Below, in pieces: positions 13,301 to 64,000 of a stretch of 64,000 bases of DNA. The notes beneath the pieces were generated by a model, which saw only the letters and a program-made list of their open reading frames with translations, searched no databases and was not told the origin of the DNA. The stretch's first letter is position 1, and every line of letters starts with the position of its first letter. The stretch is from contig NC_030381.2 in assembly GCF_001625215.2 (NCBI RefSeq), positions 52,749,214 to 52,813,213 of the forward strand. The letters run 5' to 3'. The position numbers and the translations under genes are program-made. The stretch comes from Daucus carota subsp. sativus (taxonomy: Eukaryota; Streptophyta; Magnoliopsida; Apiales; Apiaceae).

Positions 13301-13887
13301 TTTCCGCTACTATGCCTCCCGAGGCTCTTGAAATTACTAGAAAGTTCCTGAATAAGCCTGTGAGGATTCTCGTAAAAAGAGATGAGCTTACTCTTGAGGG
13401 TATTAAACAGTTTTATGTGAATGTTGACAAGGAGGAATGGAAACTGGAAACACTATGTGATTTATACGAGACTTTGGCCATTACCCAGAGTGTGATTTTC
13501 ATCAATACCAGGCGCAAGGTTGATTGGCTGACTGACCAAATGCGCAGCCGTGATCACACAGTGTCTGCCACTCATGGTGACATGGATCAGAATACGAGAG
13601 ACATAATTATGCGTGAGTTTCGCTCTGGTTCTTCCCGCGTGCTCATTACAACTGATCTCCTGGCACGTGGTATAGATGTCCAGCAAGTGTCCCTTGTGAT
13701 AAACTATGACCTGCCGACTCAGCCAGAGAACTACCTTCATCGGATTGGACGCAGTGGCCGTTTTGGAAGGAAGGGTGTTGCGATCAACTTTGTTACCAGG
13801 GATGATGACAGGATGTTGGTCGACATACAGAAGTTCTATAATGTGTTGGTCGAGGAGCTGCCAGCAAATGTTGCCGATCTTCTTTAG
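10300..13887 (+). CDS. EIF4A: Eukaryotic initiation factor 4A, copy 1 (ATP-dependent DEAD-box RNA helicase)
   Basis: eIF4A is the helicase subunit of the cap-binding eIF4F complex and unwinds 5' UTRs for 40S scanning in the cytosol. Coding exons: 11874-11938, 12048-12154, 12532-12962, 13252-13887. They join in frame to 412 codons plus TAG, the family's normal length. The protein starts [16 protein letters not shown]. Visible motifs in order: Q-motif region ([12 protein letters not shown]), motif I AQSGTGKT, Ia [37 protein letters not shown] and [14 protein letters not shown] non-coding leader exon ends at 10475. Leader intron 10476-11868 has acceptor CAG directly before TAATCATGG. A TRIM retroelement sits in that intron. 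All motifs are intact, so it is likely functional. The leader start is approximate. Confidence 0.95.
10675..10894 (-). mobile_element. TRIM (miniature LTR retrotransposon) in the eIF4A-1 leader intron
   Basis: Two ~70-74 bp terminal repeats (10675-10748 and 10825-10894) are in direct orientation. Read on the minus strand, TGGTATCAGAGC, a primer-binding site complementary to the initiator Met-tRNA end, follows the first repeat (complement of 10813-10824). A purine-rich GAGTGAGGGGAA (complement of 10749-10760) precedes the second. A 5-bp duplication ATATG flanks it (10670-10674 and 10895-10899). It has no coding capacity. The repeats have diverged, so the insertion is not very recent. Confidence 0.88.
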
Positions 13888-14826
13888 TGTGGAACTGATG
13901 TGACAAGGTACAAGTTTTTGAAAGTTACTTGATATCCTATCTAGTCACGGCTTACTAGACACATATTTGGATCTGGACTTTGATTGTGACAACCCTTGTG
14001 CATTTTGTTGTATTCTAATTTCTGCAAATATTGGTGGATTTATACGTGTCCTATTTTCTCCCTACAACTTGTAGTATGGGATGTTTGAACCAGCAACAAT
14101 TTTACATTTAACTCTGTTCATGTATAATTTGATTTTATAAAGGTGTGATTATCTATTATTCTGCTTGAAACTTGTTTATATTCGGAATTGGAAGAAATTT
14201 TTTGATATCTTGCTCCTGCCGAGTTTATAGGTTCTACAAATTTACTTACATGTGAAAGAAAATAAATGCAGTGATATTTTTACCAAGTATTTTGTATTTT
14301 CAGTATCAACCTGTTTTACCCATACTTGGTTGAAAGTGCCCAACATGCGAATTATCGGCTGAAAGCTGTGCTTCATTCTACTACCTCTTCAGATTTTTTT
14401 CTAGTGGTCCTTTATATAGATTTTGGCTGGTTTACAGAGGATTCTTCACATTGATGTGGGTAACAATGTCTTGAAAAAAATTGACAAAATTTATGGATTC
14501 TTACTGGAATTTTGTAAAAGAGAAGTTAGCTTTGTGTGGCCTTTTCTTATAAGTTGCTTTGGAAGAGTATGAGTGGAAGGGTTGGTAAGCATTGCACTTT
14601 GTTGAAAGGGAGTGCTGAGAATTAACTCAAAGCTAACTACAAAAAAATGAATTATTTTTAATAGAAGGTCATGTTTGTAGATTATCTATTAGTTAGTCGA
14701 GATATAAAATTTGCTTTTAAAATAGACGTGGTCCACCACTTACTAGGATAGGTTTCCTAAATTATATGTAAGTTGGTTTATTCTAATTAAGTTAGTTCAT
14801 ATTAATGTATCTCAATTGATTATGCA

Positions 14827-22609: not shown

Positions 22610-25600
22610 GTAAGTATTTCAAGCTTATTAATCAAATAAGTATATCTGTATGTTGCTTATGTATATATTAATGTGTTTATTTGTGTCAGATGTAGCTTCT
22701 TGATTTCTTGATATTGGATTTTTTGTGTTCTTGATTGATTGGATTTTTATTCAATTTTAATGGGGGGTTTTGTAGTAAAATTATTGGGTTTGCTTCTTTT
22801 TAGTAGAATATAATAAAGTTGATAACTTTATGATGTTCTTGTGTGAAATTATGACAAAGTTGATAAATTTATATGTGGGTTTATTTGGATTGATGTTCTT
22901 GTGTGTTATTATGTTTGATTAAGCATGAATTGGATATATACTGTTTAAGGTTGTATGTAGGTGGATTATATTGGGAAATACTTATATCGATTATAGTTCA
23001 TTAAGATTGTGATTATAGTAAGAGCTGATAGTGGTTATAGTTGGAGCTGTTGTTTCTAGAGTTCTATTAATATGTCTTGGGATGATTTTAGAGTTTTATT
23101 GATTTATCTCCGAATGATTTAAATCATGTGAACTGACATGTGTTATTAAATAGATAATCTGGTATAACAAGTTAAATTTTATATGTGTTTGTTTTTGGGA
23201 GAATGCTGCGTATATAATTAGGCAAGATAAGAATTTAATTACTTGTAGAAGGAATGTGTTTCTAGTTTAGAATCTGGATACTTGCTTTGCTAATGGTGCA
23301 TAGAGAGGTTTTCATGCATTCACGTGTACTTATTTTGGTGGGAAAAGGTAATGAATATGTATTCTTGAATATGAATAGTTAATATCTATGTATTGTGTGA
23401 TCCTTTTTTTAAAGCTGAGTTGTGATGTAAGACTTGTAGCTGAGGACAGCAACTAGTAATGTAGCAACTGTTACTAATAAAAAATATGTGCTTAGATTTT
23501 TCTCCACTAAATATTTTTGACTCCACTTCTATTGAAGGGCTAAAAATAGTGTAGTTCTGAAAGTGTTTATGATCAATTTACCACAATTATATGGAGGCCT
23601 TCTAATTGGCATATTTTACTTTTGCAAATGGCCAAAGCTGCTTGGGTGTATTCTTTTTTCAGCAAGCTCTTTATTTTGATACTAAATTTGGCTTGGTCAG
23701 CGCTAGGAGTGTACGTATACACTATTGTGCCATATATATACAACTCTCAAAAATTATTCCTAAGAAGTATAGGATTTCTTAAGGTAATATTTCTTCCTTT
23801 CAAGTAATAAAAGGACAGGGAGTATGAGAGTGCGCTTTCCTCATTTACTTTTTTATTCCTTTTTGAACTTCTAAAACAATTCATATTCTTTGAAAAGGCA
23901 ATTAGTGATGGCCTTGTCTTTTTATCTATATATTGACGTAGATGATCAATATACGATTACATGCCCCATACTTACTATGTTTGATTATTATTTAACCTTC
24001 TGATGAGGAAAATGTATCTCTTATAATTATAGTAATCATGGCTGGAGCTGCACCTGAAGGTTCTCAATTTGATGCACGGCAATTTGATGCAAAAATGACT
24101 GAGATGTAAGTGAAATATGTTTGTCTTTGTCCATTATATTTTTTTTAATGAAAACTTAGTGTATTTGATTGGATATGATCACAACAATATTCTTATTCGG
24201 TTAATGAACTCATTGGAGCAGACTTGGTGCCGAGGGAGAAGAATTCTTCACATCATATGATGAGGTCTATGATAGTTTTGATGCTATGGGACTGCAGGAA
24301 AACCTTTTGAGAGGCATCTATGCTTACGGTACATGACACTTTAATTTGTTTTTCAATATGGTGCTTCTACTTATGTATTGTAAATTTTATAATGTCTAAC
24401 AATAGTATCCTGTATTTAATGAATATTACACTGGTTTAATTACTACTTAAGGGTTGTTTATGCCTCAGCAGTAACCTATACATCAGTTGACTTGATGATT
24501 AATCTGATGATCTCTTATAATGTTCTTCCAATTCTAGCTTGAGATTTCAAAATCTCCTTTAGAACTTTTTGTGGCTTGTTTTTCTATGGGGGTTGCAGTG
24601 TGTTGGCGATGTTTTATTTTATTATATTATTAACGAATGAATGACCTTTTGATTTGTTATTAGAAACTGTTTACTGTGGTTGTCTAAATTTATGTTTTCG
24701 TTTCTGTCCTTCCTTAAGGTTTTGAGAAGCCATCCGCAATTCAACAGAGGGGGATTGTTCCATTCTGCAAGGGGCTAGATGTTATTCAGCAGGCACAATC
24801 TGGTACTGGGAAAACAGCAACTTTCTGCTCTGGGGTTTTGCAGCAGCTTGATTTTAATGTTGTTGAATGTCAAGCTCTGGTTCTTGCTCCGACTCGTGAA
24901 CTTGCGCAACAAATTGAGAAGGTTATGCGAGCACTAGGTGACTATCTTGGTGTGAAGGTTCATGCTTGTGTGGGTGGAACTAGTGTCCGCGAAGATCAGC
25001 GAATTCTCTCAAGTGGAGTTCATGTCGTGGTTGGTACTCCTGGTCGTGTATTTGACATGTTGCGAAGACAATCACTTCGTTCAGATTACATCAAGATGTT
25101 TGTTCTGGATGAAGCAGATGAAATGCTCTCAAGAGGGTTCAAGGATCAGGTATCTGTCTTACCTATAATATATGATTTGTATAGTAATCAATTCATGGGT
25201 GTTGCTGTATCTGATGCAACTATACCAGCTTATATTTGTTTAAACTATATTTGTACATAATGCATGATTTCAATCTGTTTTTTATAATATAGTGTTGTAA
25301 CATGTCGCTCGAACATATTTAACCTAGGTGTATGTTGTCTCATTTGAATGCTCTTTTATCACTGTAGAAGCTGCTGTGTTTCATATACTAATAAAAACTG
25401 TATATTGCTAAAGGTGGATCCATTTCTTCTAATGTTTACTTCATTGTTGCAGATTTATGATATCTTTCAGTTGCTACCACCAAAAGTTCAGGTTGGAGTT
25501 TTTTCTGCCACTATGCCTCCCGAGGCTCTTGAAATCACTAGGAAATTTATGAATAAGCCTGTGAGGATTCTCGTCAAGCGAGATGAGCTTACTCTTGAGG

Positions 25601-26088
25601 GTATTAAACAGTTTTATGTGAACGTTGACAAGGAGGAATGGAAACTGGAGACACTGTGTGATCTTTACGAGACTTTGGCTATTACTCAGAGTGTGATTTT
25701 CGTCAACACCAGGCGAAAGGTTGATTGGCTGACTGACAAAATGCGCAGCCGTGATCACACAGTCTCCGCCACTCATGGAGACATGGATCAGAATACTAGA
25801 GATATAATTATGCGCGAATTTCGCTCTGGTTCCTCTCGTGTTCTCATTACAACTGATCTCCTGGCACGTGGTATAGATGTCCAGCAAGTCTCCCTTGTGA
25901 TAAACTATGACCTGCCGACTCAGCCAGAGAACTACCTTCATAGGATTGGGCGTAGTGGACGTTTTGGAAGGAAAGGTGTTGCGATCAACTTTGTTACCAA
26001 GGATGATGACAGGATGTTGGTTGACATACAGAAGTTCTATAATGTAGTAGTTGAGGAGCTGCCAGCTAATGTTGCTGATCTTCTTTAG
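22450..26088 (+). CDS. EIF4A: Eukaryotic initiation factor 4A, copy 2
   Basis: Paralogue of the 10.3-13.9 kb gene with the same structure: leader exon ending at 22609, leader intron to 24032, coding exons 24038-24105, 24222-24328, 24719-25149 and 25453-26088. They give 413 codons plus TAG. Exons 2-4 have exactly the same lengths as in copy 1; exon 1 has one extra codon (MAGAAPEG). All helicase motifs are intact, including [27 protein letters not shown] and [11 protein letters not shown]. Differences from copy 1 are scattered and mild (GTSVRE versus GTVVRE, FMNKP versus FLNKP, FVNTRRK versus FINTRRK), so both appear under purifying selection. The leader start is approximate. Confidence 0.95.
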
Positions 26089-26299
26089 TTTGGAATTGAT
26101 GTAATGAGGTAAATGTTTTCTAAAAGTGATTCGCTATCCTATCTAGTCGGGGTTTACTAGACACATATATTGGATTTTGGACTTTGATTGGGACAACCCT
26201 TGCGCATTTTGTTGTATTTTAACCTTTGCAAATTTTGGTGGATTTATATGTTGTTTACCCTTCAACTTGTGTTGTGGGATGTTTGAACCTGCAGCAATG

Positions 26300-44531: not shown

Positions 44532-45818
44532 GGGTTTTATATCAAACTGACCACCCATTTCGTCAAAAAATCTCACTTGACTTGACCCACTTCATTATTT
44601 ATACCCACTTCATTATTTATACCTTTTTACTTAATTATTTATAAAAATCAACCGTTTATTTTTTTACTACAAAACCACTTCGAGTACTTTCATAATAGTC
44701 CCTGATATTTATTAAAATAATTTGAGAATTTCTAAAGCAACTTCATTATTTATACCCACTTCATTATTTATACCTTTTTACTTAATTATTTATAAAAATC
44801 AACCGTTTATTTTTTTACTACAAAACCACTTCGAGTACTTTCATAATAGTACTTTCATAATAGTCCCTGATATTTAGTACAATTTATGTGTATTAGAGAT
44901 TTTTTTAGTAATTTTATTAATATTGTAATAAAAGTTCTATTAACAATATAAAATTTAATATAACTTCTTTTTATTATATGATTGAATTTTTAATAAATAC
45001 TTTAAGATTCTCCTAAAAATTTTAGGGGTAAGATAAATCAAATATTTGATTAAGTTTATTTAATAGATACATTAAGATTCTACTAAAAGTTTTACTATAT
45101 GTTTCTTTAATTATTTACATATAATATACGATTTTGTTATGTGTTCTTTTTAAATAAGGTAGATTTTGATTTAAAATAATTTAAAATATCTTAAGGTTAT
45201 CTGTGAATTGAGACTAGATATACACAAAAATATGTAAATTGATTTAAGTTGATGATTGATAGGTTGAGTTGTCAGAAATACCAAAAATAGAAGATATTTT
45301 AAAACTACTAGATTTGGATTCCAGATTATGTAATAATTTACGTTATTTACTTTACAGATGTGGAAAATACCAAACATAAAAGATATGAAAATATTCACAA
45401 ACAGATTTTGTCCGAAATTGCCCCTGTTGATATTAGATTTGGATATATTCTGATTGAATTTAAAAATGGTAATAAATATATTCTATCTAATGAATGAACG
45501 ACATCTAAGGGAGTTCTCTCGGTTCTCTTCATAGTAAGGTTCTCTCTCGAACCTTACTCTAGTTATATGATCATCCTAGCTATGTTCCTTTAGGAATTCC
45601 CAAATTATTTTAATAAATACTAGGGACTATTATCAAAGTACTCGAAGTGGTTTTGTAGTAGAAAAATAAACGATTGATTTTTTATAAATGTTTAAGTAAA
45701 GAGCTATGAATAGTGATGATATATATTTTGTTTATAGTGGCTTAAATGAGTCCGAAATTTTTTAGGTGAGTCAGGTGAGATTTTTTGACGAAATGGGTGT
45801 GAGTTTGATATAAAACCC
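44532..45818. mobile_element. Mutator-like element with ~200-bp terminal inverted repeats, 43 bp upstream of a TNL start codon
   Basis: Left terminus GGGTTTTATATCAAACTGAC; right terminus is the inverse (GAGTTTGATATAAAACCC, ending 45818). Similarity extends ~200 bp inward (CACCCATTTCGTCAAAAAAT, the CGTTTATTTTTTTACTACAA region, TCGAGTACTTT and CCCTGATATTTATTAAAATA). A direct 10-bp repeat TTTTCTTGTC abuts both ends (44522-44531 and 45819-45828). The left repeat contains a 151-bp tandem duplication (44589-44739, again from 44740). No transposase is recognisable. Long terminal repeats and a 9-11 bp duplication fit the Mutator superfamily. Confidence 0.8.
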
Positions 45819-45861
45819 TTTTCTTGTCTCCAAATCTTTCAGAAACTCTCATATCTGTTAC

Positions 45862-47471
45862 ATGTCAATGGCTTCTGCAAGTAATAATCAAGCTTCATCT
45901 TCTTCTTCTTCAACTTTGCATCCTACTAAATGGGACGTCTTCTTAAGCTTCAGAGGAAAAGATACACGATACACATTTACCGATTATCTATACCATTCCT
46001 TGCAGCGCAATGGTATTAAAACATTTCGAGATGCTCCTAATATCCGCAGCGGAGAAATTATTACATCAGCATTGTTCCAAGCTATTCAAGATTCCAAAAT
46101 TTACATTGTTGTCTTGTCGCAAAATTTTGCTTCTTCACAGTACTGTCTTGATGAGCTCGTAGAGATCCTCAGTTGTCGCGGAAAATTGGATAGATTGCTT
46201 ATTCCGGTTTTTTACTGCATCGAACCATCGGTTGTCAAGTACCAAACCGGAAGTTATGGTGAAGCTTTCAGAAAACATGGAAATTATCATGGTCCGGATT
46301 TGTTGGATAAGTGGCGTGCAACGTTAAGGAAGGTGGGGGAATTTTCAGGATACCATGTCCGCGAAAATACGTAAGTTGTTTGGAAATATTTAAATTGTTG
46401 TTATTAATGAGATTGGTTTGGAGTAAAATTGCATAAAATTATTGATATTTTTGATATTTTAAGACCTCCGCCAAACCTGAGCTTTGATCCAACCAATTCT
46501 CCCAAATCTCAATGTGTTGGGAGAAGAATTTACCAGGATCATATTGTTATTGTAACAGTGCTCAGTTTTTCTTATCAAAATGAGTCGACCTAGTTGGAGT
46601 CAAACTCGATTGATGTTTAAAAATTTCATTCCTTTATTCTTCTTTTGTGTTGGGCGTACATGAGTATAAGAAGATCATCAGAGTCGGACACAACTAAAAA
46701 CCTAAAGGCTTAACACAAGTTTGTCTGAGTCTAGGGTCAATGAGTTGAAATGATTTTGAATCAAGTTCTGAGTTGGATACATTACAGTTTACTCAAAACA
46801 TGAGATTATCTGTATTACTACTAGGATAGCTATGTATAAAAAAAATAAAAAATGAATCTCTATCTTTAGATAGATTCCTCGAGTCTTCACATCATCTGTT
46901 TTACTGTCAATTAATGTTTTGCATCCATCTGTTGTTGAAAAATGCTAGGTATCTCAGAAAGTGTTCCCAATTCTTTTTTCTCAAATCCTCTTGGCGACGT
47001 ATTATTGGTTTCACTCACACTAATAATAATGGGATCACTGTATGCACATAAACCACCCAATTAAAATTAGCCACCTGTGTGTCATGGACTCATGGGGAAA
47101 AATAGCATTGCTCTCTGTTGTTTTAGTGAAAATCTGACACTATAATAAATTGTGGCAGGTTTCAAGTTGATGTTATCAATGAAATTACTGATAGGGTTTT
47201 ACAAGAAATTAATACCATGCCTTCGGCTCTGGAAGTAGCCCAATATCTTGGGATGAATTCTCCTGTTAAAGATGAGGCAACATTGTCGAGTAATGTCACA
47301 GCAGGTGTGCACAACCAAAACAATGGCCCCTTTAAGGGCAGCAGCTTCTTAGAAATATATATATATATAATATATGATAATATATATATATATAGGAGTA
47401 AGATCCTGGGAGAACTGAGAGAACTACTACATCTGCCGTTGATTAAGAATCTTAATATAATTATATTCTGA
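45862..47471 (+). CDS. Truncated TNL copy: TIR domain with a stub of NBS
   Basis: Exon 1 (45862-46370) encodes a Ser-rich start and a full TIR domain (residues ~25-165: WDVFLSFRGKDTRYTFTDYL ... SSQYCLDELVEIL ... VFYCIEPSVVKYQ). The CLDEL glutamate that TIR NADases use is present. The intron 46371-47158 carries a MITE and a TRIM relic. Exon 2 starts at 47159 and matches the NBS exon of the downstream TNL only to 47355. Then (AT)n and transposon sequence add about 38 foreign codons to a stop at 47471. Predicted product is ~273 residues, a TIR-plus-tail protein without an NBS. The promoter is a copy of the TNL promoter, so it could be expressed. TIR-only proteins can be active in plant immunity; whether this one is remains unknown. 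Confidence 0.75.
46462..46552 (-). mobile_element. TRIM relic in the TIR-gene intron, copy 1
   Basis: Matches the right part of the TRIM at 10675-10894: a decayed primer-binding-site region (GAGCTTTGATCCA) then the repeat (CCAATTCTCCC...GTTGGGAGAAG...CAGGATCATATT). Same sequence again at 53015-53105 through the block duplication. Confidence 0.6.
46941..47109. mobile_element. Small MITE in the TIR-gene intron, copy 1
   Basis: Ends AATGCTAGGTATCTC and GGGGAAAAATAGCATT are inverted. Related copies are at 53494-53662, 59627-59798 and 60113-60280. Confidence 0.6.
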
Positions 47472-49439: not shown

Positions 49440-51900
49440 AAATATGAGCTGCTTCGTTAGTCGATCATATGTATATCTATCTATAATATGATTTTCTTAT
49501 GTGTTTTTTAAAGTAAATTTTAATTTCATAAAACTAATTTTAATGATACATTAATTACGATTCTACGCATTAAATTTTCTATATAACGCAAATTAAAAAT
49601 ACTTAATTTAAATCTATAAAAGACTTAAGAGAATATAATTAAAATATTCTTTATTATAGAATACTTAATTAATATTGTTAAAAGGCATCTAAACACTTTG
49701 GAACATAGTTAATAGAATTATTTTTTTTGAGAGCAAATAGAATTTTTTTTTTGAGAGCAAATAGAATTTTTTTTATTATCTGATTTAACATATTTGATTT
49801 AACATATTAGAACACCTAGCAAGATATTTTTCAACATAATATTATTGTGTGTCAAACATTTTTTATATAATATTAATAAAATTATAATAAGTGTTCAACT
49901 AACAATATAAAAGTTAATATAAATTACATGATCAAGTATAATAGGTATATTAATATTCCACTAAACCTTTTATGAAGTGTTTCGTTAGTTGGTCATATTT
50001 AACATATAAATTTATTATGTGTTCTTTTCAAACAAAATAGAATTTAATTTAAAATAATTTAGTGGTACATTAATGAAGATTCTATTGATTAATGTATTAA
50101 ACTTTGTATAGAATGACAACCAAGATTTTAAATACATTTTTATTATGTATTAGAGATTTTTAATATTCTTTAAAAATTGTTATAAGAATTTTACTAACAA
50201 TATAAAGTTTATTATAACTTTTTAAATGTGTTTAAGTTTATTTAACAAATACATTAAGATTTTATTAAAAATTTTATTGATATTCTACTAAATCTCACAT
50301 TAATTATATTAAGTATATATTAAGTGTTTCACTAATAATATAATATTTTTATCATTATAATATTAGATATACTTATTCTATTTTAATTTCTATTAAGATT
50401 CTACTGAGTGTTTCACTAATATCATTCGGATTCTATTATTTTAATATTAAATATATTTATATTAAATTAATTTCTAATATATGATTCCCCACCTATGTCA
50501 AGATTTCATAGAAAACTTATAAGTTTGTTCGTAAGTCGTTCATATATAAAATATGATTTTATTATATGTTCTTTTTACATAACATATAATTTTATTTCAT
50601 AAAACTGATTTCAATAAAACCTTAATCAAGATTCTACTAATTGATACATTAAATTTTAAATTTTAGATACAATGATAATAGAAAATATACTTAATTTATG
50701 TTAATAAAAGACTTACAGGAATTTTAATAAAATATTTTTGTTAGAGAAGAATTCATTAATATTAGAAAAACACATTTAAGCACTTTGGAGCAGATTTAAT
50801 ATTTTTTTTTTAATTATCTGATAAAACACAATCGAACACCTAGTAAGAGCTTTAATATATTATTATTGTGCATTAGAAATTTTTAATAACAATAATATTA
50901 AAATTGTAATAAGGATTCATTAACAATACAGAAATCGATAGAATTTTTTAGATCATGTGATGAGATGTATTTTAACAAGTACATTAAGATTCTACTAAAA
51001 TTCTTATTAGGTGTTTCGTTTTTTGGTGATGTATATTATATAGTTTTGTTACGTGATCTCCTCCAATAAAATTTAATTTAAATTAAAATTATTTAGAGAT
51101 ACATTAATGAAGATTCTACTTATTAATGTATTAAACTTTCTATATTGATAATCAAGATTTATGACATATTTCTATTGTGTATTAGATTCTAGTAAAAATT
51201 TTATTGATACTGTACTGAGTGTCACATTGATGGTATTAAGATTCTATTAAATGTTTCACTGATAATTCTACTATTTTAATATTAAATATATTTTTTTAAT
51301 TTTAATTTCTAAATATTAGAAATGTTAATGACTATAAAAGATTCTACTATTCCAAAATCATTTAGTAACATGTTAATGAAGATTCTACAAATTGATGCAT
51401 TAAAATTTCTATATAATGAAAGATTTTTAGTACAATTTATGTGTATTAGAGATTTTTTTAGTAATTTTATTAATATTGTAATAAAAGTTCTATTAACAAT
51501 ATAAAATTTAATATAACTTCTTTTTATTATATGATTGAATTTTTAATAAATACTTTAAGATTCTCCTAAAAATTTTAGGGGTAAGATAAATCAAATATTT
51601 GATTAAGTTTATTTAATAGATACATTAAGATTCTACTAAAAGTTTTACTATATGTTTCTTTAATTATTTACATATAATATACGATTTTGTTATGTGTTCT
51701 TTTTAAATAAGGTAGATTTTGATTTAAAATAATTTAAAATATCTTAAGGTTATCTGTGAATTGAGACTAGATATACACAAAAATATGTAAATTGATTTAA
51801 GTTGATGATTGATAGGTTGAGTTGTCAGAAATACCAAAAATAGAAGATATTTTAAAACTACTAGATTTGGATTCCAGATTATGTAATAATTTACGTTATT
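49440..51900. repeat. Diverged ~0.5-kb tandem repeat array
   Basis: A recurring marker (TGTTTCGTTAGTTGGTCATAT-like, then ATATAA...TTTTGTTATGTGTTC(T)TTTT) appears near 49450, 49978, 50523, 51005 and 51650. Between markers are repeated blocks such as ACATTAATGAAGATTCTACT, ATTAAGATTCTACTAAAA and TTGTGTATTAGAGATTTTT. Unit length varies from about 480 to 640 bp. The last unit is shared with the duplicated block (compare 45097). No coding content. Confidence 0.7.
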
Positions 51901-53908
51901 TACTTTACAGATGTGGAAAATACCAAACATAAAAGATATGAAAATATTCACAAACAGATTTTGTCCGAAATTGCCCCTGTTGATATTAGATTTGGATATA
52001 TTCTGATTGAATTTAAAAATGGTAATAAATATATTCTATCTAATGAATGAACGACATCTAAGGGAGTTCTCTCGGTTCTCTTCATAGTAAGGTTCTCTCT
52101 CGAACCTTACTCTAGTTATATGATCATCCTAGCTATGTTCCTTTAGGAATTCCCAAATTATTTTAATAAATACTAGGGACTATTATCAAAGTACTCGAAG
52201 TGGTTTTGTAGTAGAAAAATAAACGATTGATTTTTTATAAATGTTTAAGTAAAGAGCTATGAATAGTGATGATATATATTTTGTTTATAGTGGCTTAAAT
52301 GAGTCCGAAATTTTTTAGGTGAGTCAGGTGAGATTTTTTGACGAAATGGGTGTGAGTTTGATATAAAACCCTTTTCTTGTCTCCAAATCTTTCAGAAACT
52401 CTCATATCTGTTACATGTCAATGGCTTCTGCAAGTAATAATCAAGCTTCATCTTCTTCTTCTTCAACTTTGCATCCTACTAAATGGGACGTCTTCTTAAG
52501 CTTCAGAGGAAAAGATACACGATACACATTTACCGATTATCTATACCATTCCTTGCAGCGCAATGGTATTAAAACATTTCGAGATGCTCCTAATATCCGC
52601 AGCGGAGAAATTATTACATCAGCATTGTTCCAAGCTATTCAAGATTCCAAAATTTACATTGTTGTCTTGTCGCAAAATTTTGCTTCTTCACAGTACTGTC
52701 TTGATGAGCTCGTAGAGATCCTCAGTTGTCGCGGAAAATTGGATAGATTGCTTATTCCGGTTTTTTACTGCATCGAACCATCGGTTGTCAAGTACCAAAC
52801 CGGAAGTTATGGTGAAGCTTTCAGAAAACATGGAAATTATCATGGTCCGGATTTGTTGGATAAGTGGCGTGCAACGTTAAGGAAGGTGGGGGAATTTTCA
52901 GGATACCATGTCCGCGAAAATACGTAAGTTGTTTGGAAATATTTAAATTGTTGTTATTAATGAGATTGGTTTGGAGTAAAATTGCATAAAATTATTGATA
53001 TTTTTGATATTTTAAGACCTCCGCCAAACCTGAGCTTTGATCCAACCAATTCTCCCAAATCTCAATGTGTTGGGAGAAGAATTTACCAGGATCATATTGT
53101 TATTGTAACAGTGCTCAGTTTTTCTTATCAAAATGAGTCGACCTAGTTGGAGTCAAACTCGATTGATGTTTAAAAATTTCATTCCTTTATTCTTCTTTTG
53201 TGTTGGGCGTACATGAGTATAAGAAGATCATCAGAGTCGGACACAACTAAAAACCTAAAGGCTTAACACAAGTTTGTCTGAGTCTAGGGTCAATGAGTTG
53301 AAATGATTTTGAATCAAGTTCTGAGTTGGATACATTACAGTTTACTCAAAACATGAGATTATCTGTATTACTACTAGGATAGCTATGTATAAAAAAAATA
53401 AAAAATGAATCTCTATCTTTAGATAGATTCCTCGAGTCTTCACATCATCTGTTTTACTGTCAATTAATGTTTTGCATCCATCTGTTGTTGAAAAATGCTA
53501 GGTATCTCAGAAAGTGTTCCCAATTCTTTTTTCTCAAATCCTCTTGGCGACGTATTATTGGTTTCACTCACACTAATAATAATGGGATCACTGTATGCAC
53601 ATAAACCACCCAATTAAAATTAGCCACCTGTGTGTCATGGACTCATGGGGAAAAATAGCATTGCTCTCTGTTGTTTTAGTGAAAATCTGACACTATAATA
53701 AATTGTGGCAGGTTTCAAGTTGATGTTATCAATGAAATTACTGATAGGGTTTTACAAGAAATTAATACCATGCCTTCGGCTCTGGAAGTAGCCCAATATC
53801 TTGGGATGAATTCTCCTGTTAAAGATGAGGCAACATTGTCGAGTAATGTCACAGCAGGTGTGCACAACCAAAACAATGGCCCCTTTAAGGGCAGCAGCTT
53901 CTTAGAAA
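51426..53908. repeat. 2483-bp duplicated block, copy 2
   Basis: Partner of 44873-47355. This copy continues into a full TNL gene, so it is probably the source. It holds the right end of the Mutator-like element (ending 52371) with its flanking TTTTCTTGTC (52372-52381). The matching left terminus is not found upstream of it before 48.9 kb; the nearest is at 44532. Confidence 0.9.
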
Positions 53909-56900
53909 ACGCCAGGGAGGCTTCACAAACAAACAGAGGCATAGCAGCTGGTTTACAACAGAAACCTGTCAATGATATTCTTAAATGTAAGAACATCACT
54001 ATTGACAGTACTGACAGTGGAACTGAGTTGATAAGAGATAGAATTTGTTCAGCAAAAATTCTTGTTGTTATTAATGATTTAGACGGCATAGTGCCACTGG
54101 AATTTTTAGAAGGACCATTCATTGTGGGGAGCACGATCATAATAACAACACGACATGAAGATTTGCTAGATCCAATTGATGAAGAAGCCAAGTACAAGGT
54201 TAAAGAATTGGGTGATTTTGAGTCGCGTCAACTTTTTTGCCAACATGGATTTGGAGGAGATAACGAAATGCTGGACACATTCAGCGAATTGTCCAAAGAA
54301 ATTCTGGAACTTGCTGGAGGACTTCAGCTGGCTCTTAAGGTTTGTGGTTCGGCCTTGATCAAGGACTCTGAGGGAGGATGGAGTTGTTTTATTGATAAGT
54401 TGAGACAAGTTTCTATTGCCGGTGTAGAGGAGATACTACTGATTTGCTTTGATGCACTGGGTGACCCTTTGAAAAATATATTCCTAGACATTGCTTGTTT
54501 TTTTATTGGGCACGAGGAAAAAGATGTTGTTCAGATAATGGAAACTTGTTATGCATCCGTGAACCATGATGTTGGCATTTTAAAGAAAAAAGGTTTGCTT
54601 ACTATTAATTATCATGGATTCATGGTGCGTCAACAAATCATGATGCATGATCTGCTTGTTGATATGGGAAGGAAAATTGCATGTAACAACTCCCCTGATG
54701 CATCAGAAAAGCACAGTCAATTGTGGGTACCGGAAATTATACATGAGGTGTTGAATGAGAACAAGGTACGTCTCTCTTTTCGCCTCAGGATGATTTTGTT
54801 TACAACTTTCGCAATAGTAAGTTTCAGTCTTTACTTAAATTTTTGTGTCAGGGAACAGAAGCAATTGAAGGTATGATCCCGAGCAACTTTGGCTTCTTTA
54901 GGAACTTTAATCCTTTTTCCGAGGATAGCTTGGAACATCTGGGGAGGAAATCCATTCTTGCCTCAAAAAGTAGACAATATGATGCTGAAACATTCAAAAG
55001 GATGAGAAAATTAAGATATCTTTACCTCCAAAAAGTGAATCTCACTGGAAGCTTTGAACACAAATTTAAAGAGTTGAGGTGGCTCTATTGGGAGCGTTGT
55101 CCCCTGTGGTATTTACCTTCTGATTTTTGCCCGCAAAAACTTGTTTTTCTGGCATTGCATGGTAGCAAAATAAAAACAATGTGCACGTTCAGCAGGGTAG
55201 GCATCTTTAAGAACTTGAAGACTCTAGACATGAGGCATTCTTTTGATCTAACTACAATTTCAGACTTCACTAGATTACCGTGTCTTGAAACTTTAAATCT
55301 CAAGTGCTGTAAAAGGTTGGAAGAGGTCCACCATTCAATTGGAAGTTTGGCGAGGCTTGTTTACTTAAATTTAGGGGGGTGTAGTACACTAAAAGGTCTT
55401 CCAGGCAGCATTTGTAACTTAAAAGCACTGAAACGCCTTCATATTTGGAGTTGTATTAATCTGAAATCAATTCCTAGGAACTTTGGGAACATTGAATCTC
55501 TGGTAAAGCTCGACGCAAGGTGGGCAAATCTTAGAAAATTACCAGATTCGATTGGTTGTCTTAGTAAGCTTGTTAAGTTGAACTTGTCTTCTTGTGAAAA
55601 ACTTATAACACTTCCGGACACTATCTGCGATTTGAGATCACTAAATATTCTAGATATCGGTCGCTGTAGTAGTCTGGAAGCATTGCCTGCAAGATTGGGG
55701 AACCTTGAATCCCTGGTAGAGCTCAGAGCGGGGAATCTAATTGTTTCAGAATTACCAAATTCAATTGGACGTCTTAGTAAGCTTGTTAAACTGTTCTTGT
55801 CTTGGTGCCACAAACTTAAAACTCTTCCGGACACCATTTGCAATCTGAAGTCACTGGAAATTCTAGATATTTATGGGTGTACTAGTCTCGAAGCATTGCC
55901 TTCAGAATTTGGGAAACTTGAATCCCTGGTACACCTCGGAGCGGGGGAACTTCAAAGTTGTATCAACTTGTTGTCTATTGCAGAACTTCCTTCTAGTTTG
56001 AAATATCTAACCCTTGAGTGCTGCGAGTCTATGGAAAGATTACCAAATCTATCCAATTTGAAGCAGTTGGAGGATTTAATCCTGAGAGGTTGTCGTAGTT
56101 TGACAGAGATTCGAGGACTGGAGGAATTAACTTCTATTCAAAATCTTCATTTCGGAGGTTGCAACTCGTCTCTACTGAAATCCACTTTTACAAAACGTTT
56201 ATTTCAGGTTTGCTAATCTCAAACTCTTTACGAATCATTTGCTTGATGATTTAATTGAAAATTAGTTTCAGATAGTTGTAAAATAAGATTGCCAGATGAA
56301 TATCTGAACATTAATTTATACAGAAAAAACATCAGAAATTATTGACCTGGTTACAATAATATTTGTTGATTAACTGTTTACGGGGTCGTATCTTGCAACA
56401 GATATACTCTGAATTTGGGCATCAGATAAAATTTTATGCTCCTCCATCAGTGTTTATGGACTGGATTAGTCGATCAGCAGACTGGATCAGCAAAACAAGT
56501 AATTCTGTATCGACAGTTTCTTTAGATTTGCCAGAAGACCTGTCACAAAATTTCTTGGCAATGATCCTTTTCATTAAATCCTCTAGTAGAGGTAGAGCTG
56601 TTAGTTCTGTTAAGACTACCACAAACAACATTTCATGGAGCTTTAGGTATACAAGCTCCTATTATGATGATTATCAAGATATTTCAAGCATGGATATAGT
56701 ACCAAGATCAGTATTCTCGGTTACAGACGATGATGATATAATTGAATTCACAGCAAGTCTAGAAGTAGAATCTTCTGGTATTGGTATGCCTTTTACAAGA
56801 AAACTAGAAAAACCAGAAATTCTTGGGATTCATCTAGTATACAAGCCGGAGATTAAGATAACTGACGAGTGCGTACAGTCAAATACAGATGAAGAAATCT

Positions 56901-56932
56901 TCTTTGAGGCGGTTGAAACATTTGGAATGTGA
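52415..56932 (+). CDS. TIR-NBS-LRR immune receptor lacking the P-loop
   Basis: TNLs are intracellular NLR receptors that detect pathogen effectors and signal through TIR NADase activity and EDS1. Exons: 52415-52923 (TIR), 53712-54765 (NBS), 54852-56207 (linker and LRR), 56402-56932 (post-LRR C-JID), all phase-consistent; 1149 codons. Compared with the neighbour at 59-64 kb, about 20 residues are missing in frame around residue 207: LSNDT..GMGGVGKTT..AVYNQN becomes LSSNVTAGVHNQN, so Walker A is absent. Kinase-2 reads LVVINDLDG with N for the first D, and GLPLAL reads GLQLAL. RNBS-B (GSTIIITTR) and MHD (MMHDLLVDMG) remain. The LRR shows ~47-residue double-LRR units. The C-JID begins IYSEFGHQIKFYAPPSVF. 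The frame is open throughout, so it may encode a nucleotide-binding-deficient NLR rather than an obvious pseudogene. Confidence 0.88.
53494..53662. mobile_element. Small MITE in the TNL intron, copy 2
   Basis: Second copy of 46941-47109, with AATGCTAGGTA and AATAGCATT ends. A TRIM relic precedes it in the same intron at 53015-53105. Confidence 0.6.
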
Positions 56933-57039: not shown

Positions 57040-57170
57040 ACTCGATCATCAGTACTTCCGGACTGGATTTGTCAATCGGCAGATTGGATTAGTCAGTCAA
57101 GTAATTCAGGGACAACAGTGTCTCTAGCAGACTAGCATCGCCACCAGATGTGCCTCAAATTTTTTTTTTA
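57040..57170 (+). pseudogene. C-JID exon fragment of a decayed TNL
   Basis: Resembles 56437-56545 of the preceding gene: CCGGACTGGATTTGTCAATC...GCAGATTGGATTAGTCAGTC...AAGTAATTC. Frame broken; TAG stops within it. This is a leftover of another TNL copy. Confidence 0.65.
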
Positions 57171-57324
57171 AATGATTCTCTGCCTTCAAGACTCCGCCAT
57201 TTATTCTGTAAAGACTACAGCTTGTTATATTGAATGATATCAGAAATATTCAAGTTTATTTTCATGTGATTCTTAGTACAGCTCATGTATGCTTGTAGAA
57301 TTAAAGATAAGTATTCTTATTTAG

Positions 57325-58060
57325 GGTTTTTCTGGAACCTAAAAAGTCTACCGGACAGCTTGTGCCACTTAAAAGCACTAAGAAGCCTTTCTATTGACAA
57401 TTGTTGGAATCTGATAGCAATTCCTGGGAACATTGGGAACATTGAATCTCTGGTATGGCTCAAAGCAAGATGGCTAGCTCTTTGCAAATTACCGGATTGA
57501 ATTGGTTGTCTCAGTAGCCTTGTGGAGTTCAACTGGGGTGTAAATGAGTCAAGCAGTTCGTGAGCTGCTTGAGCTCGAGCTATTCAAATAGTTTACCGAG
57601 CCAAGTTCGAGCTTCGTATTACTCGGTTTGTGAGGCTTGCGAGCATAATCGAGCATGTATTATTATAATTATTTTTATATTATTTCTGTATTATTATATA
57701 AAATATTTAATTTTTATATCTTTTTTATATATTTAATCGAATCGAACTCGAGCCGAACCGAACCGATCAAATTACGAATTTTTGTTAATATTTTGTGAAA
57801 TTAATCGAACTTTCAAGCTGAACTCAAGCCTATCGAACTTTCACGAGCCGGGCTTCGAATTTAAAATTAAAGGCTCGATCGAACTCGAGCTCGAACTCGA
57901 ACCCCGAACTTTTTAATCGAGTTCGAGCTGAGCCTGGCAGTGCTCGACTCGATTACACCCTGTTCAACTTGTTTTCTTGAGCAAACCTTGAAACTCTTCC
58001 GGGCACTATTTGCAATCTGATATCACTAGAAGTTCTATTGGTTAATGGTTACTGTAGTGG
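57325..58060 (+). pseudogene. TNL LRR relic split by a hAT MITE
   Basis: LRR-type sequence (LKSLPDSLCHLKALRSLSID, then NIGNIESLVWLKARWLALCK LPD) runs to a TGA at 57498-57500 where relatives have TCG (Ser). It continues in nucleotide similarity to 57534, is interrupted by a transposon, and resumes at 57970 with homology to the LETLPDTICNL repeat (ACTCTTCCGGGCACTATTTG). No flanking TIR or NBS exon. Confidence 0.75.
57535..57961. mobile_element. hAT MITE inserted in the LRR relic
   Basis: Inverted ends GGGGTGTAAATGAGTCAAGC and CTCGACTCGATTACACCCT. An exact 8-bp target duplication GTTCAACT lies at 57527-57534 and 57962-57969. Subterminal runs of GAGCTCGAGC / CGAACTCGAGC type form a foldback. It is non-coding. 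Confidence 0.92.
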
Positions 58061-58069
58061 TCTGAGAAG

Positions 58070-59050
58070 CCATTATTATCACTGATCAATAGTTACGAAT
58101 TTTTGTTTTGTTTAACATTTTTTTGTTCAAATTGACTAATGACTAAATATTATACATAAAATATGAATAAAGATATAATAAAATTTGTATCACTAGAATT
58201 CACAATGTATCTATTTTAATATGTATTTTTCAAATATTATCAATCATAAAAGGATAAAAAAAACATAAATAATAATCAAAATTCAGTTAATTTGATATAA
58301 AAAGATCGAATAAAATAAAAAAATTGAAACGGGAGTATTAAAGATTTCATGCATTAAAAATTTATAGTACTCGTGTATACACATGTACACCGAAAATTTA
58401 CATATGAGAACAACTTCAAGATCTTATATAGAAGCTATTGATATAAGACTACTGTCCTATTTTTTATATCTCAAAAACTTTACAATGATAAACTATAAAA
58501 TTGATTTCTATATCATTAAAATAGTCTCCAATAATTTTAAATTTATTGAGGATCCAATTATTATTACAACATATTTTTTTAAAAATCAATAATTAAACAA
58601 TTAGTCCATATTTTATAACTTATTGAATTGATTAAACGTTTCAATTATCTGATTATTATTCAATTAATAATTAATTAAATTTCATTTCTTATTTTCACCG
58701 ATTAAATAAGATTCACAATTTTTCAACTCTGGTCAACATGTAAACAAATGTGCTGGGGGAGTTGTTGAAGACTTGAAGATACAGTACCATTGTCAAGATT
58801 CAAGAATATCCACCGCCGCCCACGGTACACCAGATCCGGATTTCACACCACCCAGTAAACACACACGTTAATAAAGTGCAGCCCATATAAGTGAACCTTG
58901 AATTTCAATTCTTTTACAACAATTAGTAAATTACCACAATCCATAGCCCTCTTCTAACCCTTAATCGTATTCCTTAACTCGTCGAATTGATTAAATTTCT
59001 GATTAATTCCCGATCAATTTAATCCTTATTCCGTAACTTCGTAACACTTC
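58070..59050. other. Intergenic DNA upstream of the third TNL
   Basis: AT-rich. A degenerate Stowaway-like stretch may occupy ~58085-58340 (ends GGGAGTA). No gene. The last ~200 bp are the presumed promoter of the next TNL; no TATA box was assigned. Confidence 0.4.
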
Positions 59051-59060
59051 CGAACTAACA

Positions 59061-62000
59061 ATGTTTCCAAATGGGACGTGTTCATAAGTTTCAGAGGCTC
59101 AGACACAAGATACACATTTACCGATTATCTCTACCACTCCTTGAAGCGCACTGGCGTTCGAACATTCCGAGATGATCCTGAGCTACGTAGCGGAGAACTA
59201 ATCTCGGACGCACTGCTCCAAGCGATACATGAATCGAAGACCTACGTTGTTGTCTTGTCGGAAAACTATGCTTCTTCGAGATGGTGTCTAGATGAGCTCG
59301 TGGAGATCAAGTCAACGGGGAGACTGATCGTTCCTGTATTTTATAACATTGAGCCGTCAGTTGTCAAGTACCAAACCGGGAGGTTTTACCAAGCTTTTGA
59401 AGCTCATGAATCTCGTTATGGTAGTCATATGGTGGATAGATGGCGCGTCACATTGATGAAGGTTGGGAACTTGTCAGGATACCATGTCCATGAAAAAATG
59501 TAAGTGCTAATACCTTTCCTCATTTTCAATTTATTTTTTTTGAATAATATTAGAGAACCTAAAAATCTTCCTAAAAATCATCCCAAATGATGGGTTCTTG
59601 CTTGATTATGGATATTTTTAAAAGTTGTCCTAGGTACCCAAATTTGTTTCCAATTTTTTTTCCAAATGACGTGGCTGAGTAATTTTAATTAGGCGGTTTA
59701 TTAATGTCAATATTATTAATGTTAATGAAAATTGAAACCAATCAAACATTGACAACTTATTGAGAACAAAAATGGGAATTATTTTTGGTCCCTAGCATTT
59801 CTCTATTTATTTTCTCTAATTTTAATTGGTCTATTATATGCATAATAATAACACGAACTAAATTAAGTGGACTTAATTGATGATAAATGAGAAAAATTAG
59901 TAGAAAAATTAGTAGTCGATTACATACAATTTGGAAAAGAATTATCAGCATAATTTGGGAGAATTTTGGGATCAGATTAGGAAAACATCACTCTATCCAG
60001 CACAGTGCTGGTGAGGTTCCCTAACCAATTCAATTTCTACAAATATAGGATTCTCTATATTGAACGACACTCCAACAATATTCCCTATTTGTGTTCCTTA
60101 TAATTATTGGAACATGCTAGGTACCCAAAATGTGTTCCCAAATTTTTAGTGTATGATTGGTTTCCCTCACAATAATGATAATGGAACCCCTGTATGCATA
60201 TCAACCAGCCAATTAAAATTAGTCATTTGTCTGCCACGTCATTTGGAAAAAAAATTGGGAACATAATTTGGAGTAGTATTAAATTCATAATCTATTAGCA
60301 AAAAGATAATGCAAAAAATGTAGGAAAAGGTGGGAAGTGAATATTTAATCATTAAAAAGCAAATGAGGAATGAGTTAGCCATTAGTATTTATGAGGACTG
60401 AAGAGTGGATCCTAATTCTAAAAGTTTAGAGAATGACTGAGACTCTTTTGGAGTGGATTTTTGTAGCATATTCCTCGAAATTATAGTTTAGTGTATCATA
60501 TAGCTAATCTGTGGGAGATGGCTCTAATTCAATGGTTATGCAACTGTTTGTTGGTAATTGGTTAGAGGCAAATAATTGTCGGGGACCAGGTCCCTAGTTC
60601 TATATCCAAGAAAAGTCACACTTGTAGAATAGCAGCTCAGATTGAAATTGGAAGTCTAAATAACAAGAGTATTATAGGGCATATAAACTTTAAACAATTA
60701 TACAGAGAAGTTAGCAGCATGGACGTTTAAGACTAATAGTAGCAACAGGAGTTTTGTATACAGTGTTGATCCTTATGCTACAGTTACCACTTACCAGTAA
60801 TATCTGATACAAGTAATACTCGATGCAACAAATGAATACATGGACATCGTCAAAACTAAAATAAGCAATAAAAAGAATATAAATATAAAATACTTAACAT
60901 CTATATTGAAAATTCTTACATTGCTTAAAGTTTGTAGTGACTTGGCTTCTATTCTATACATCCATAACTCCATTATTTTGATATTGAACTTCCTGTCAAG
61001 TTGCTTGACTCCGCATTGACTACTTTACAGGTTGAATGTTCTGCTATATATCCGACAGAAATACATGTGTGAACATATTATCCGCGTAAATCTCATGTAA
61101 ACTGTCATCAGACAGCACCAAGACACACCTTTAGTATAGAATTTACATCATCATCATATTACGAAAGATTCATCAAGTCTTGGCATCCTTTACTTTACTG
61201 TTAATTTAATTTGTATGAAGATCTGATTCTTTATTTTGATTAATAAATTGCATTGCAGGTCCCAAGTTGCTATTATTGATGAAATAGTTGATAGAATTTT
61301 ACTGGAAATAAATCCTGTGACTTTGGATGTTGCCAAATACCCAGTGGGGTTGGATACTCGTGTTAAGGACATAACAGCATTGTTGAGCAATGACACAAAA
61401 TGTGTCAATAGGATTGGCATACATGGTATGGGTGGAGTTGGCAAAACAACTCTTGCCAAAGCTGTGTATAACCAAAACTATCATCGCTTTCAGGGCGGAT
61501 GCTTCCTAGCAAATGTGAAGGATGTTTTAGAAACAAGAAAGGGCCTAATATGTTTGCAACAGAAACTTATTAGTGATGTTCTTAAATGTAAAAACATTAC
61601 CATTGACAATGTTGACCAAGGGATTGAGGTAATAAGAGCTAGAATTTGTTCTACAAAAATATTAATTGTTATTGATGATCTGGACAACTCAGCGCCATTG
61701 GAATATTTAGAAGGACCATTTGCTTTTGGCAGCGCCATCATAATAACAACAAGATATGAAGATCTACTGGATTCAATTGAAGTAGAAGCCAAATATAAGG
61801 TAAAGGAATTGGGAGATGCTGATTCACGTCGACTATTTATCCAACATGCATTTGCAGATAATAATATATCTGATACATTCATGGAACTATCTAAAGAAAT
61901 TCTAGAACATGCTGGGGGGCTCCCACTGGCTCTTAAAGTTTGTGGTTCAAACTTGCTTAATCAATCCGAGGAAGGATGGAGATGGTTCATTGACAAATTA

Positions 62001-64000
62001 AGACGAGTTTCTCTTGACGATGTTGAGAAAAAATTGTTGATTAGTTTTGATGCCTTGAAACTGGTTGATCCTATGTTGCAGGATATTTTTCTAGATATTG
62101 CCTGCTTTTTCATTGGGGATAAGGCAAAAGAAGTTGTTCAAATAATGGAAACTTGTTATACATTCAGCAATCGTAATATCGACATTCTCAAGAAAAGAGA
62201 TCTACTAAGCATCAATGACAGAGATGAGTTGGAGATGCATGATCTACTTCGGGATATGGGAAGGAAAATTTCGTGTAACAACTCTCCTGATGAGCCAGGA
62301 AAACACAGTAGATTATGGGTAACAGAAGATATATATGACTTGTTAAAGAATGACAAGGTAATTTTTAGATATATGCATATATGTCCCGTAATTGTTCTAG
62401 AGGCATCTTATGGTTTCATATAACTTTAATATGATACTCTTAGAGTTCTAAATATATGAAGTCAGTGATGTAGACTAAAATAAAAATTGAAGAAAAGAGT
62501 AGAAGAAAGTGTACATTTTGTATATAATTCCCACTACTGCATGTTACAAGATAAAGGGGCTTTTCAGAATGTGTAACTAGAATGTGCAACTGCTGGTAAT
62601 ATATGCTCATAATATGTAATATATTTATCAACATTAGTCAATAACTTTCCTCCTGATATATATGTTTAGGGAACAGAAGCAGTTGAAGGTATCATCTTTG
62701 GTACAGGAACATTGGTCAATAACCTTCCTCCTGATATTTTTTCCCATCATAGAGCTATCTTTGATCATTTCACTACTGATACATTTCAAAGAATGAGTAA
62801 ACTAAAGTTCCTTCACCTCGAGTATGTGAAGCTCACAGGAAGCTTTGAACATTCATTTAAAGATTTGAGGTGGCTCCATTGGAAGTTTTGTCCTTTGAAG
62901 TGTTTACCTTCTGACTTTTACCTGCAAAGACTTGTTATGCTTGAATTGCCTCATAGCAAACTGACTACAATATGGAAGATAAACAGAGTAAGTACTGTAT
63001 GTAAATTTCTTGCGTATATGATTACTTGTATTGGAAAATCTGGTTTAATTTCTTCCGATTGCAGTCTTTTTTGCAGATTCCACATGTATTTGAAAACCTG
63101 AAGACTTTAAACATGTCCCATTCTCTAGATCTAATTACTACTTCAGACCTCACTAGACTACCGTATCTTGAAACTTTGAATCTCGAGGGGTGTGAAAGTT
63201 TGAAGGAGCTCCACATCTCAATTGGAAGCTTGGTGAGGCTGGTTTCTCTGAATTTGCAGTTTTGTGTCAAACTAAAAAGTCTTCCGGACAGCATTTGTAA
63301 CTTGACAGCACTGAAATGTCTTAACATTGCGCGCTGTAGTAGTTTGAAAGCACTTCCTACGAACTTGGGGAACATTGGATCTTTGGAAGAGCTTAATGCA
63401 AAGTGGCTAACTATAAACAAATTACCACATTCGATCGGTCTTCTAGGTAATCTTATTGAGCTGAAGTTGTGTTTTTGCGGAAACCTTGAAACTCTTCCTG
63501 ACACTATTTGCAATCTGAGGACACTGAAAATTCTATATATTGATGGTTCCTGTCGGCTAAAAGCATTGCCTGAAGAATTGGGTAACCTTGAATCGCTGGT
63601 AGAACTCAAAGCGGAGAATCTAATTGTTTCAAAATTACCAGATTCAATCGGGCGTCTTAGTAAGCTTATTGAGCTGAACCTGTCTTGTTGCAGCAAACTT
63701 GAATCTCTTCCAGAAACTGTCTGCAATCTTAGATCACTGAAAATTCTGGATATTGGCTGGTGTAGTAGTGTGAAAGCTTTACCAACAGAATTGGGGAACC
63801 TTGAATCTCTAATAGAGCTCAAGGCTATGAGACTAACTGTACCAAAATTACCGGATTCGATTGGACGTCTTAGTAAGCTTGTTAAGCTGAACTTGTCTGT
63901 TTCCGAAAAGCTTAAAACTCTTCCAGATAGTATTTGCAATCTAAGATCACTGAAAATTCTGGATATTGATGATTGCCATATGCTAGAAGCATTGCCTACA
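59061..64000 (+). CDS. TIR-NBS-LRR immune receptor, 3'-incomplete, with an apparent start-proximal frameshift
   Basis: Exons: ~59061-59499 (TIR), 61259-62357 (NBS), 62670-62987 (linker and first LRR), 63077 to the window end (LRR, open in frame at 64000). TIR: KWDVFISFRGSDTRYTFTDY ... SSRWCLDELVEI. The NBS is complete: GMGGVGKTTLAKAV (P-loop), ILIVIDDLD (kinase 2), GSAIIITTR (RNBS-B), GLPLALKV, EMHDLLRDMGRKI (MHD). The LRR has the same ~47-residue double-repeat unit as its neighbour (LPDTICNLRxLKIL ... LPxxLGNLESLVEL). The only upstream ATG (59061) reads MFPNGTCS-stop, one base out of frame with KWDVF. A stop lies upstream in the TIR frame, and exon-1 length is one base short of the phase needed by exon 2. 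One T is therefore probably missing in the sequence or the gene. Confidence 0.85.
59627..59798. mobile_element. Small MITE in intron 1 of the third TNL (a)
   Basis: Ends CCTAGGTACCCAAATTTG and ATTTTTGGTCCCTAGCATT are inverted. Same family as the MITE at 46941-47109. Confidence 0.55.
60113..60280. mobile_element. Small MITE in intron 1 of the third TNL (b)
   Basis: Starts CATGCTAGGTACCCAAAATG and ends TTGGGAACATAATTTGG followed by a degenerate AGTAGTATT. Interior CACTAATAATAATGG-like and CAGCCAATTAAAATTAG blocks match 46941-47109. Confidence 0.6.

Follow-up and report, generated by a model that had tools for sequence, protein, structure and literature searches.

A full-length TNL gene of carrot that has lost its P-loop in frame, probably in the course of regressive evolution

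NLRs that lack a P-loop are a known kind. The closest described case is Pb1 of rice, a CC-NB-LRR with a degenerate NB domain that is naturally without a P-loop (PMC3782705; for the missing P-loop also PMC3478704). Here we describe a further member, a full-length TNL with an open frame, which we call gene A. It lies in a stretch of 64,000 nucleotides (‘the window’) of Daucus carota subsp. sativus, contig NC_030381.2, at C1:52749214-52813213 of the genome that we searched (441 Mb, 11 contigs). Gene A is, we think, probably a TNL in regressive evolution, which is a claim about its history. It resembles Pb1 in the missing P-loop and in a local duplication at the locus (for Pb1, in the title of Hayashi 2010, in the reference list of PMC3782705), and differs in that resistance is proven for Pb1, which is a CNL, whereas gene A is a TNL known here from its sequence.

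In the sensor–helper pairs RRS1/RPS4 and RGA5/RGA4, a mutated sensor P-loop can leave the pair active, which is the likeness to gene A; the sensors RRS1 and RGA5, however, have an integrated domain and a head-to-head helper, and gene A has neither (PMC9528088). Head-to-tail NLR pairs also exist (e.g. RPP2A/B; PMC9528088), and in the TNL pair CHS3–CSA1 both P-loops are required for oligomerisation (PMC11298796). Among 1,615 proteins extracted in a benchmark that covered Arabidopsis, tomato and rice, 44 carried no P-loop NTPase annotation; some of these may be regressive NLRs like Pb1 and RXL, and others are partial genes or pseudogenes (PMC8559963). Two CC-NLRs of N. benthamiana are without the motif (PMC9851556), and Arabidopsis NLRs with degenerate P-loops are mentioned, with reference to another paper, in PMC3478704. 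No natural P-loop-less TNL came up in our limited literature search, which is no proof of absence. The solved TNLs ROQ1 and RPP1, which with ADR2 are the best full-length PDB matches, have the same order of TIR, NB-ARC, winged helix and LRR as gene A; both have a P-loop, and gene A does not. We take PDB chain 7crb to be RPP1.

Gene A occupies 52415-56932 on the + strand. Its four exons have GT-AG borders and together give 1149 codons with no stop, in a splice model that is inferred rather than RNA-based. Its parts are listed here, gene B being a P-loop-intact TNL farther along the window:

52415-52923, + strand: exon 1, with the start codon and the TIR domain (Pfam TIR PF01582, 142.9 bits)
53712-54765, + strand: exon 2, with the NB-ARC that lacks a P-loop
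53848-53862, + strand: deletion junction; net 60 nt (20 codons) absent compared with gene B and the other aligned relatives
54073-54075, + strand: kinase-2 substitution D291N, reading VVINDLD, at a position invariant in 12 paralogues and in ROQ1, RPP1 and ADR2
54325-54327, + strand: GLPL substitution P375Q, reading GLQL, at a position invariant in the same 12 paralogues and three structures
54643-54651, + strand: MHD motif, intact
54852-56207, + strand: exon 3, the LRR region (Pfam LRR_14 and others)
56402-56932, + strand: exon 4, the post-LRR region, common to relatives and not recognised as C-JID

When genes A and B are aligned, 20 residues of gene B, KCVNRIGIHGMGGVGKTTLA, find no match in gene A, and this stretch includes the P-loop GMGGVGKTT. 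The junction falls near 53853/53854, with an exact edge that is ambiguous by a few codons. Judging by NB-ARC anatomy, we take the missing stretch to be the beta1 strand, the P-loop and the start of the next helix. The original prediction for this DNA had reported an in-frame loss of about 20 residues including GMGGVGKTT, N for D in kinase-2, GLQL for GLPL, and an intact 1149-codon frame, MHD and LRR; our alignments and the inferred splicing bear out all of these. Its statement that the C-JID remains did not hold up, as no Pfam match at E<=10 was found in gene A; the five relatives tested gave none either, so the absence may be a limit of the Pfam model.

The Pfam models that match gene A are, in order, TIR, a partial NB-ARC, winged-helix and LRRs; none is an integrated domain. 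The NB-ARC scores 33.8 bits and is matched from profile position 95 of 248, against 83.9 bits from position 5 in gene B. This still exceeds the Pfam cut-off of 23.5, so a domain-based pipeline would probably count gene A as an ordinary receptor. The linker motif YPVGLD reads YLGMN. In alignment with ROQ1, RPP1 and ADR2, the TIR retains the aligned Glu, E98 (52706-52708), and has Tyr for the Trp four residues earlier (W94Y); E98 presumably corresponds to the catalytic Glu of TNL TIR domains. Set against a canonical TNL, gene A has the TIR, MHD and LRR and departs at the P-loop, kinase-2, GLPL and C-JID; set against P-loop-less NLRs of the Pb1 kind, it has the NLR architecture, the NB-ARC remnant, the missing P-loop and the open frame. 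Structure prediction for exon 2 of genes A and B, from two-row alignments, was unusable (mean predicted local distance difference test scores 31.2 and 30.7), and we build no structural claim on it.

Among the related NB exons that we read, the deletion is peculiar to gene A and not a trait of the family. The P-loop pattern GxxxxGK[TS] is present in all 13 other complete NB exons of one set, and in 37 of the 42 loci of a larger set that includes A, B, C (a TNL beyond the window, described below) and most of the 13 again. Gene A apart, the loci without a match are L033, a frameshifted copy with a stop; L058, a stretch with stops that is P-loop-less as read and whose upstream part lies outside the fetched sequence; L059, which starts inside the P-loop with GGIGKTT visible; and L064, a fragment that matches the later part of the NB exon alone. 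One gene is counted twice among the 37 (as L036 and L063); its listed match is spurious, and its translation shows genuine P-loops. These 42 loci are part of the 117 matching pieces that the genome search listed, many weaker ones being outside the check; a carrot survey gives only six TNLs (PMC10017999). The twice-counted gene is a related TNL with the opposite lesion: at L063 (C2:41810550-41811728) the P-loop stretch is doubled, GMGGLGKTT then GMGGVGKTT, in an open NB exon.

The original prediction had named dN/dS (the ratio of nonsynonymous to synonymous substitution rates) as a test, a neutral value meaning a pseudogene. We ran it across paralogues of one genome, not across accessions, using a branch model of our own (a codon model of the GY94 type, F3x4). 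The main fit comprises 714 codons of seven genes, namely A, B, C and four relatives, those whose TIR, NB and LRR were all usable; its columns have a residue in A, B and C, the LRR columns come from the first 260 residues of exon 3 and are filled in all seven, and junction residues 216-220 are dropped. The branch of gene A has a dN/dS of 0.60 (95% likelihood interval about 0.45-0.80), compared with 0.339 for the rest (p = 1.9e-4 for equality), 0.22 for B and 0.32 for C. The value is thus raised, yet below 1 (p = 8.2e-4). Pairwise dN/dS between A and B is 0.41 overall (0.34-0.49) and 0.30 in the NB-ARC (0.22-0.42). NB-exon trees place A with C, and the joined data slightly prefer A with B (5.5 log-likelihood units better). 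The main tree, with A beside C, is therefore not the best one, but the tree with A beside B leads to the same conclusion, and over three topologies the value for A is 0.60-0.64. Leaving out any single part keeps the result, except that p for dN/dS = 1 becomes 0.09 without ARC+WHD (the winged-helix domain).

At 71 sites identical in 12 paralogues (a count that leaves out L018b), gene A has changed at 10, the most of the 13 genes, the others having 0-8 changes on closely similar site sets. As background only, we also counted changes in A and B at sites where at least two of ROQ1, RPP1 and ADR2 agree: 11 vs 2 in the linker and nucleotide-binding domain (NBD), 0 vs 4 in the WHD, 8 vs 7 in the TIR and 3 vs 2 in ARC1 (Fisher p = 0.035, or 0.069 without two junction columns). 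A raised dN/dS can mean a neutral spell or a lasting, weaker constraint. Explained as a neutral spell after background constraint, the excess needs 0.05-0.21 substitutions per site and predicts 7-29 stops in 1149 codons, frameshifts not included; none is observed. It is therefore likely that most of the excess change dates from a time when the frame was still selected, and the frame was most likely under selection until recently.

Several points weigh against a regressive history. The evidence is that of a single genome and of the gene's own letters. For the NB exon alone (10 of the 14 NB exons), dN/dS is 0.51 in A against 0.347, which is not significant (p = 0.067), although A is again below 1 (p = 0.0013). 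Fitted separately, the parts of A have 0.50 in the TIR (p = 0.05), 0.91 in the NBD (p = 0.001), 0.35 in ARC+WHD (p = 0.77) and 0.76 in the LRR (p = 0.04), each tested against the rest; only the NBD rise is clear, and values for single parts are noisy, as the 0.58 of C in ARC+WHD shows. The raised ratio could partly reflect diversifying selection. The tests also average over the whole branch of A, before and after the deletion, without isolating selection after it, and a late deletion in an already fast-evolving gene would look similar. A release confined to the NBD, as the separate fits suggested (0.88-0.91, vs 0.29-0.35 in ARC+WHD), was considered and dropped. With shared branch lengths, again for 10 of the 14 NB exons, the values are 0.57 and 0.45 (p = 0.24) and the contrast is gone, and the losses at invariant sites are spread (5 of 32 in linker and NBD, 2 of 15 in ARC1, 3 of 24 in the WHD and after).

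Regressive evolution could have proceeded as follows. An in-frame deletion removed the P-loop and, to judge by homology, the central beta1 strand. Without these, gene A would be expected neither to bind nucleotide nor to power an oligomer by itself; by what is known of TNL biochemistry, it is very probably unable to bind or exchange ADP and ATP normally or to drive its own resistosome. On its branch, much of the protein appears to have come under weaker constraint, with selection still acting on the reading frame, as the branch dN/dS and the lack of stops suggest. Any remaining activity would be passive: the TIR and LRR might act in a complex with a relative that still has its P-loop, gene C being the most plausible one, or gene A might be a brake on such a relative.

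The window is AT-rich (32% GC). The TNL units of the cluster all lie on the + strand, leaving no head-to-head partner for gene A, and four of the five, counting A, have a visible lesion. Beyond gene A the window holds:

57049-58080, + strand: relic of another TNL, with post-LRR and LRR pieces containing stops (found by tblastn)
59066-64000, + strand: gene B, a P-loop-intact TNL, open from the TIR to the end of the window under inferred splicing

The relic is split by a repeat-like, GAGCTCGA-rich insert at 57540-57960. Gene B lacks a start: no ATG, near-cognate codon or AG acceptor lies between an in-frame TAA (59042) and the TIR, and one has to go 120 codons into the TIR to meet an in-frame ATG. 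Its strong purifying selection (0.22) and the absence of a start codon (59042-59069) together suggest that the 5' end was lost recently or that the assembly is wrong there. Gene C (L009/L010) begins about 6 kb beyond the window, with an ATG, an open TIR, an open LRR and an open NB exon containing the P-loop, VIDDLD and RGLPL. We call it apparently intact, its splicing being outside the detailed check. It shares the subfamily and exon order of gene A, but has the ATG and the three motifs in intact form; the branch of A is the longer one (0.237 vs 0.116). The original prediction had proposed the P-loop-intact neighbour at 59-64 kb as the partner. That neighbour, gene B, does have its P-loop, but with no start codon it has been demoted from first choice, and C is the better candidate. 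Elsewhere in the window, at 11805-14100 and 23969-26298, are two copies, 81% identical, of a gene for a protein with a C-terminal helicase domain; the Pfam model Helicase_C matches both open reading frames tested.

The first part of gene A is duplicated as a 2.5-kb block:

44869-47355, + strand: truncated 5' copy of gene A, with the upstream region, the TIR exon, intron 1 and exon 2 as far as its 65th residue; a TA repeat forms the end
51422-53908, + strand: source copy of the block, which continues rightwards into the remainder of gene A and leftwards into repeat-like sequence

The two copies have one mismatch in 2,487 bp, at the fourth base, and are identical over the 2,483 bp that follow it. 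The truncated copy, cut off just past the deletion point, can encode a TIR fragment only, as it ends 65 residues into exon 2. The repeat-like left flank continues into the block better at 51422 (56 identities, 10 mismatches and 6 gaps) than at the other copy (39, 20 and 19), so gene A is likely the source and the 44.9-47.4 kb piece derived. From the deletion shared by both copies it had been argued that the deletion predates the duplication. The sharing is real, but the second copy is a 5' fragment and no NLR, and with the blocks nearly identical, the duplication either happened very recently or is an artefact of assembly, so little about age can be read from the shared deletion. At 44552-45799, six pairs of inverted repeat arms, 84-97% complementary, lie on either side of the region upstream of the truncated TIR copy and end about 60 bp before its ATG; none was found in the source copy region 51000-52420. 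The genome search also matched part of intron 1 (53488-53656) to 14 further places, with 70-83% identity, 12 of them without another gene A match nearby in the same list; this part of the intron thus looks like a dispersed repeat.

Two alternatives to regressive evolution concern the present state of gene A; they overlap with it, and the confidences need not sum to one. The better of them is that gene A is a very young pseudogene, with a recent deletion, an inert protein and too little time for stops. We regard this as possible, though less likely than not. The in-frame lesion, accompanied by losses at kinase-2, GLPL and the linker, would fit, as would the decaying surroundings (the truncated copy, the relic, and B without a start), and up to about 0.021 neutral substitutions per site could have gone by (P = 0.05) with no stop appearing. 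The open frame and a dN/dS different from 1 (p = 8e-4) are not those of an old pseudogene, but a very recent one would also show them. So brief a neutral spell, however, would not produce an excess of amino-acid change this large, although the excess could predate the deletion; in the outgroup test from the structure database, with two ambiguous junction columns dropped, the joint probability is at best 0.012-0.021.

A second alternative is that gene A is maintained as a P-loop-independent TNL: it would fold without nucleotide, be bound in a complex to a TNL with an intact P-loop, and contribute recognition through its LRR, or a TIR subunit, like RRS1, RGA5 or Pb1. This seems to us rather unlikely, for all that speaks in its favour. 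The 1149-codon frame is open, MHD and the aligned TIR Glu are retained, the branch dN/dS is below 1, and ARC+WHD is at 0.35, like the background, compared with 0.91 in the NBD (parts fitted separately); there are precedents in the tolerated sensor P-loop mutations of RRS1/RPS4 and RGA4/RGA5 (PMC9528088) and in Pb1 (PMC3782705). But raised estimates in the TIR, NBD and LRR speak for weaker rather than retuned constraint, and gene A has no integrated domain, no head-to-head partner, a neighbour B without a start and a decaying neighbourhood. Loss of beta1 should disturb the fold and not nucleotide binding alone, and the TNL sensor CHS3 requires its own P-loop (PMC11298796). In its fullest form, with the NB part a spacer and the TIR and LRR at work in a complex powered by a paralogue such as C, gene A would be a TNL under selection that needs no nucleotide, and so a natural equivalent of Pb1 among TNLs; we consider this unlikely. 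The original prediction's choice between a nucleotide-independent or decoy-like NLR and a gene starting to decay frames the case well; its decoy is unsupported, given the Pfam content of gene A and the lack of a head-to-head partner. An assembly or sequencing artefact, in which the plant itself would have no 60-nt gap or no identical 2.5-kb block, is very improbable: the identity over 2,483 bp is what a false duplication would give, but the gap is in frame and accompanied by substitutions at separate motifs (kinase-2, GLPL, linker), and the source copy sits in continuous context.

A gene A in regressive evolution is still a useful case. If it were instead a TNL working without ATP, it would show which part of activation needs the switch, and would be a natural test of hetero-complex models.

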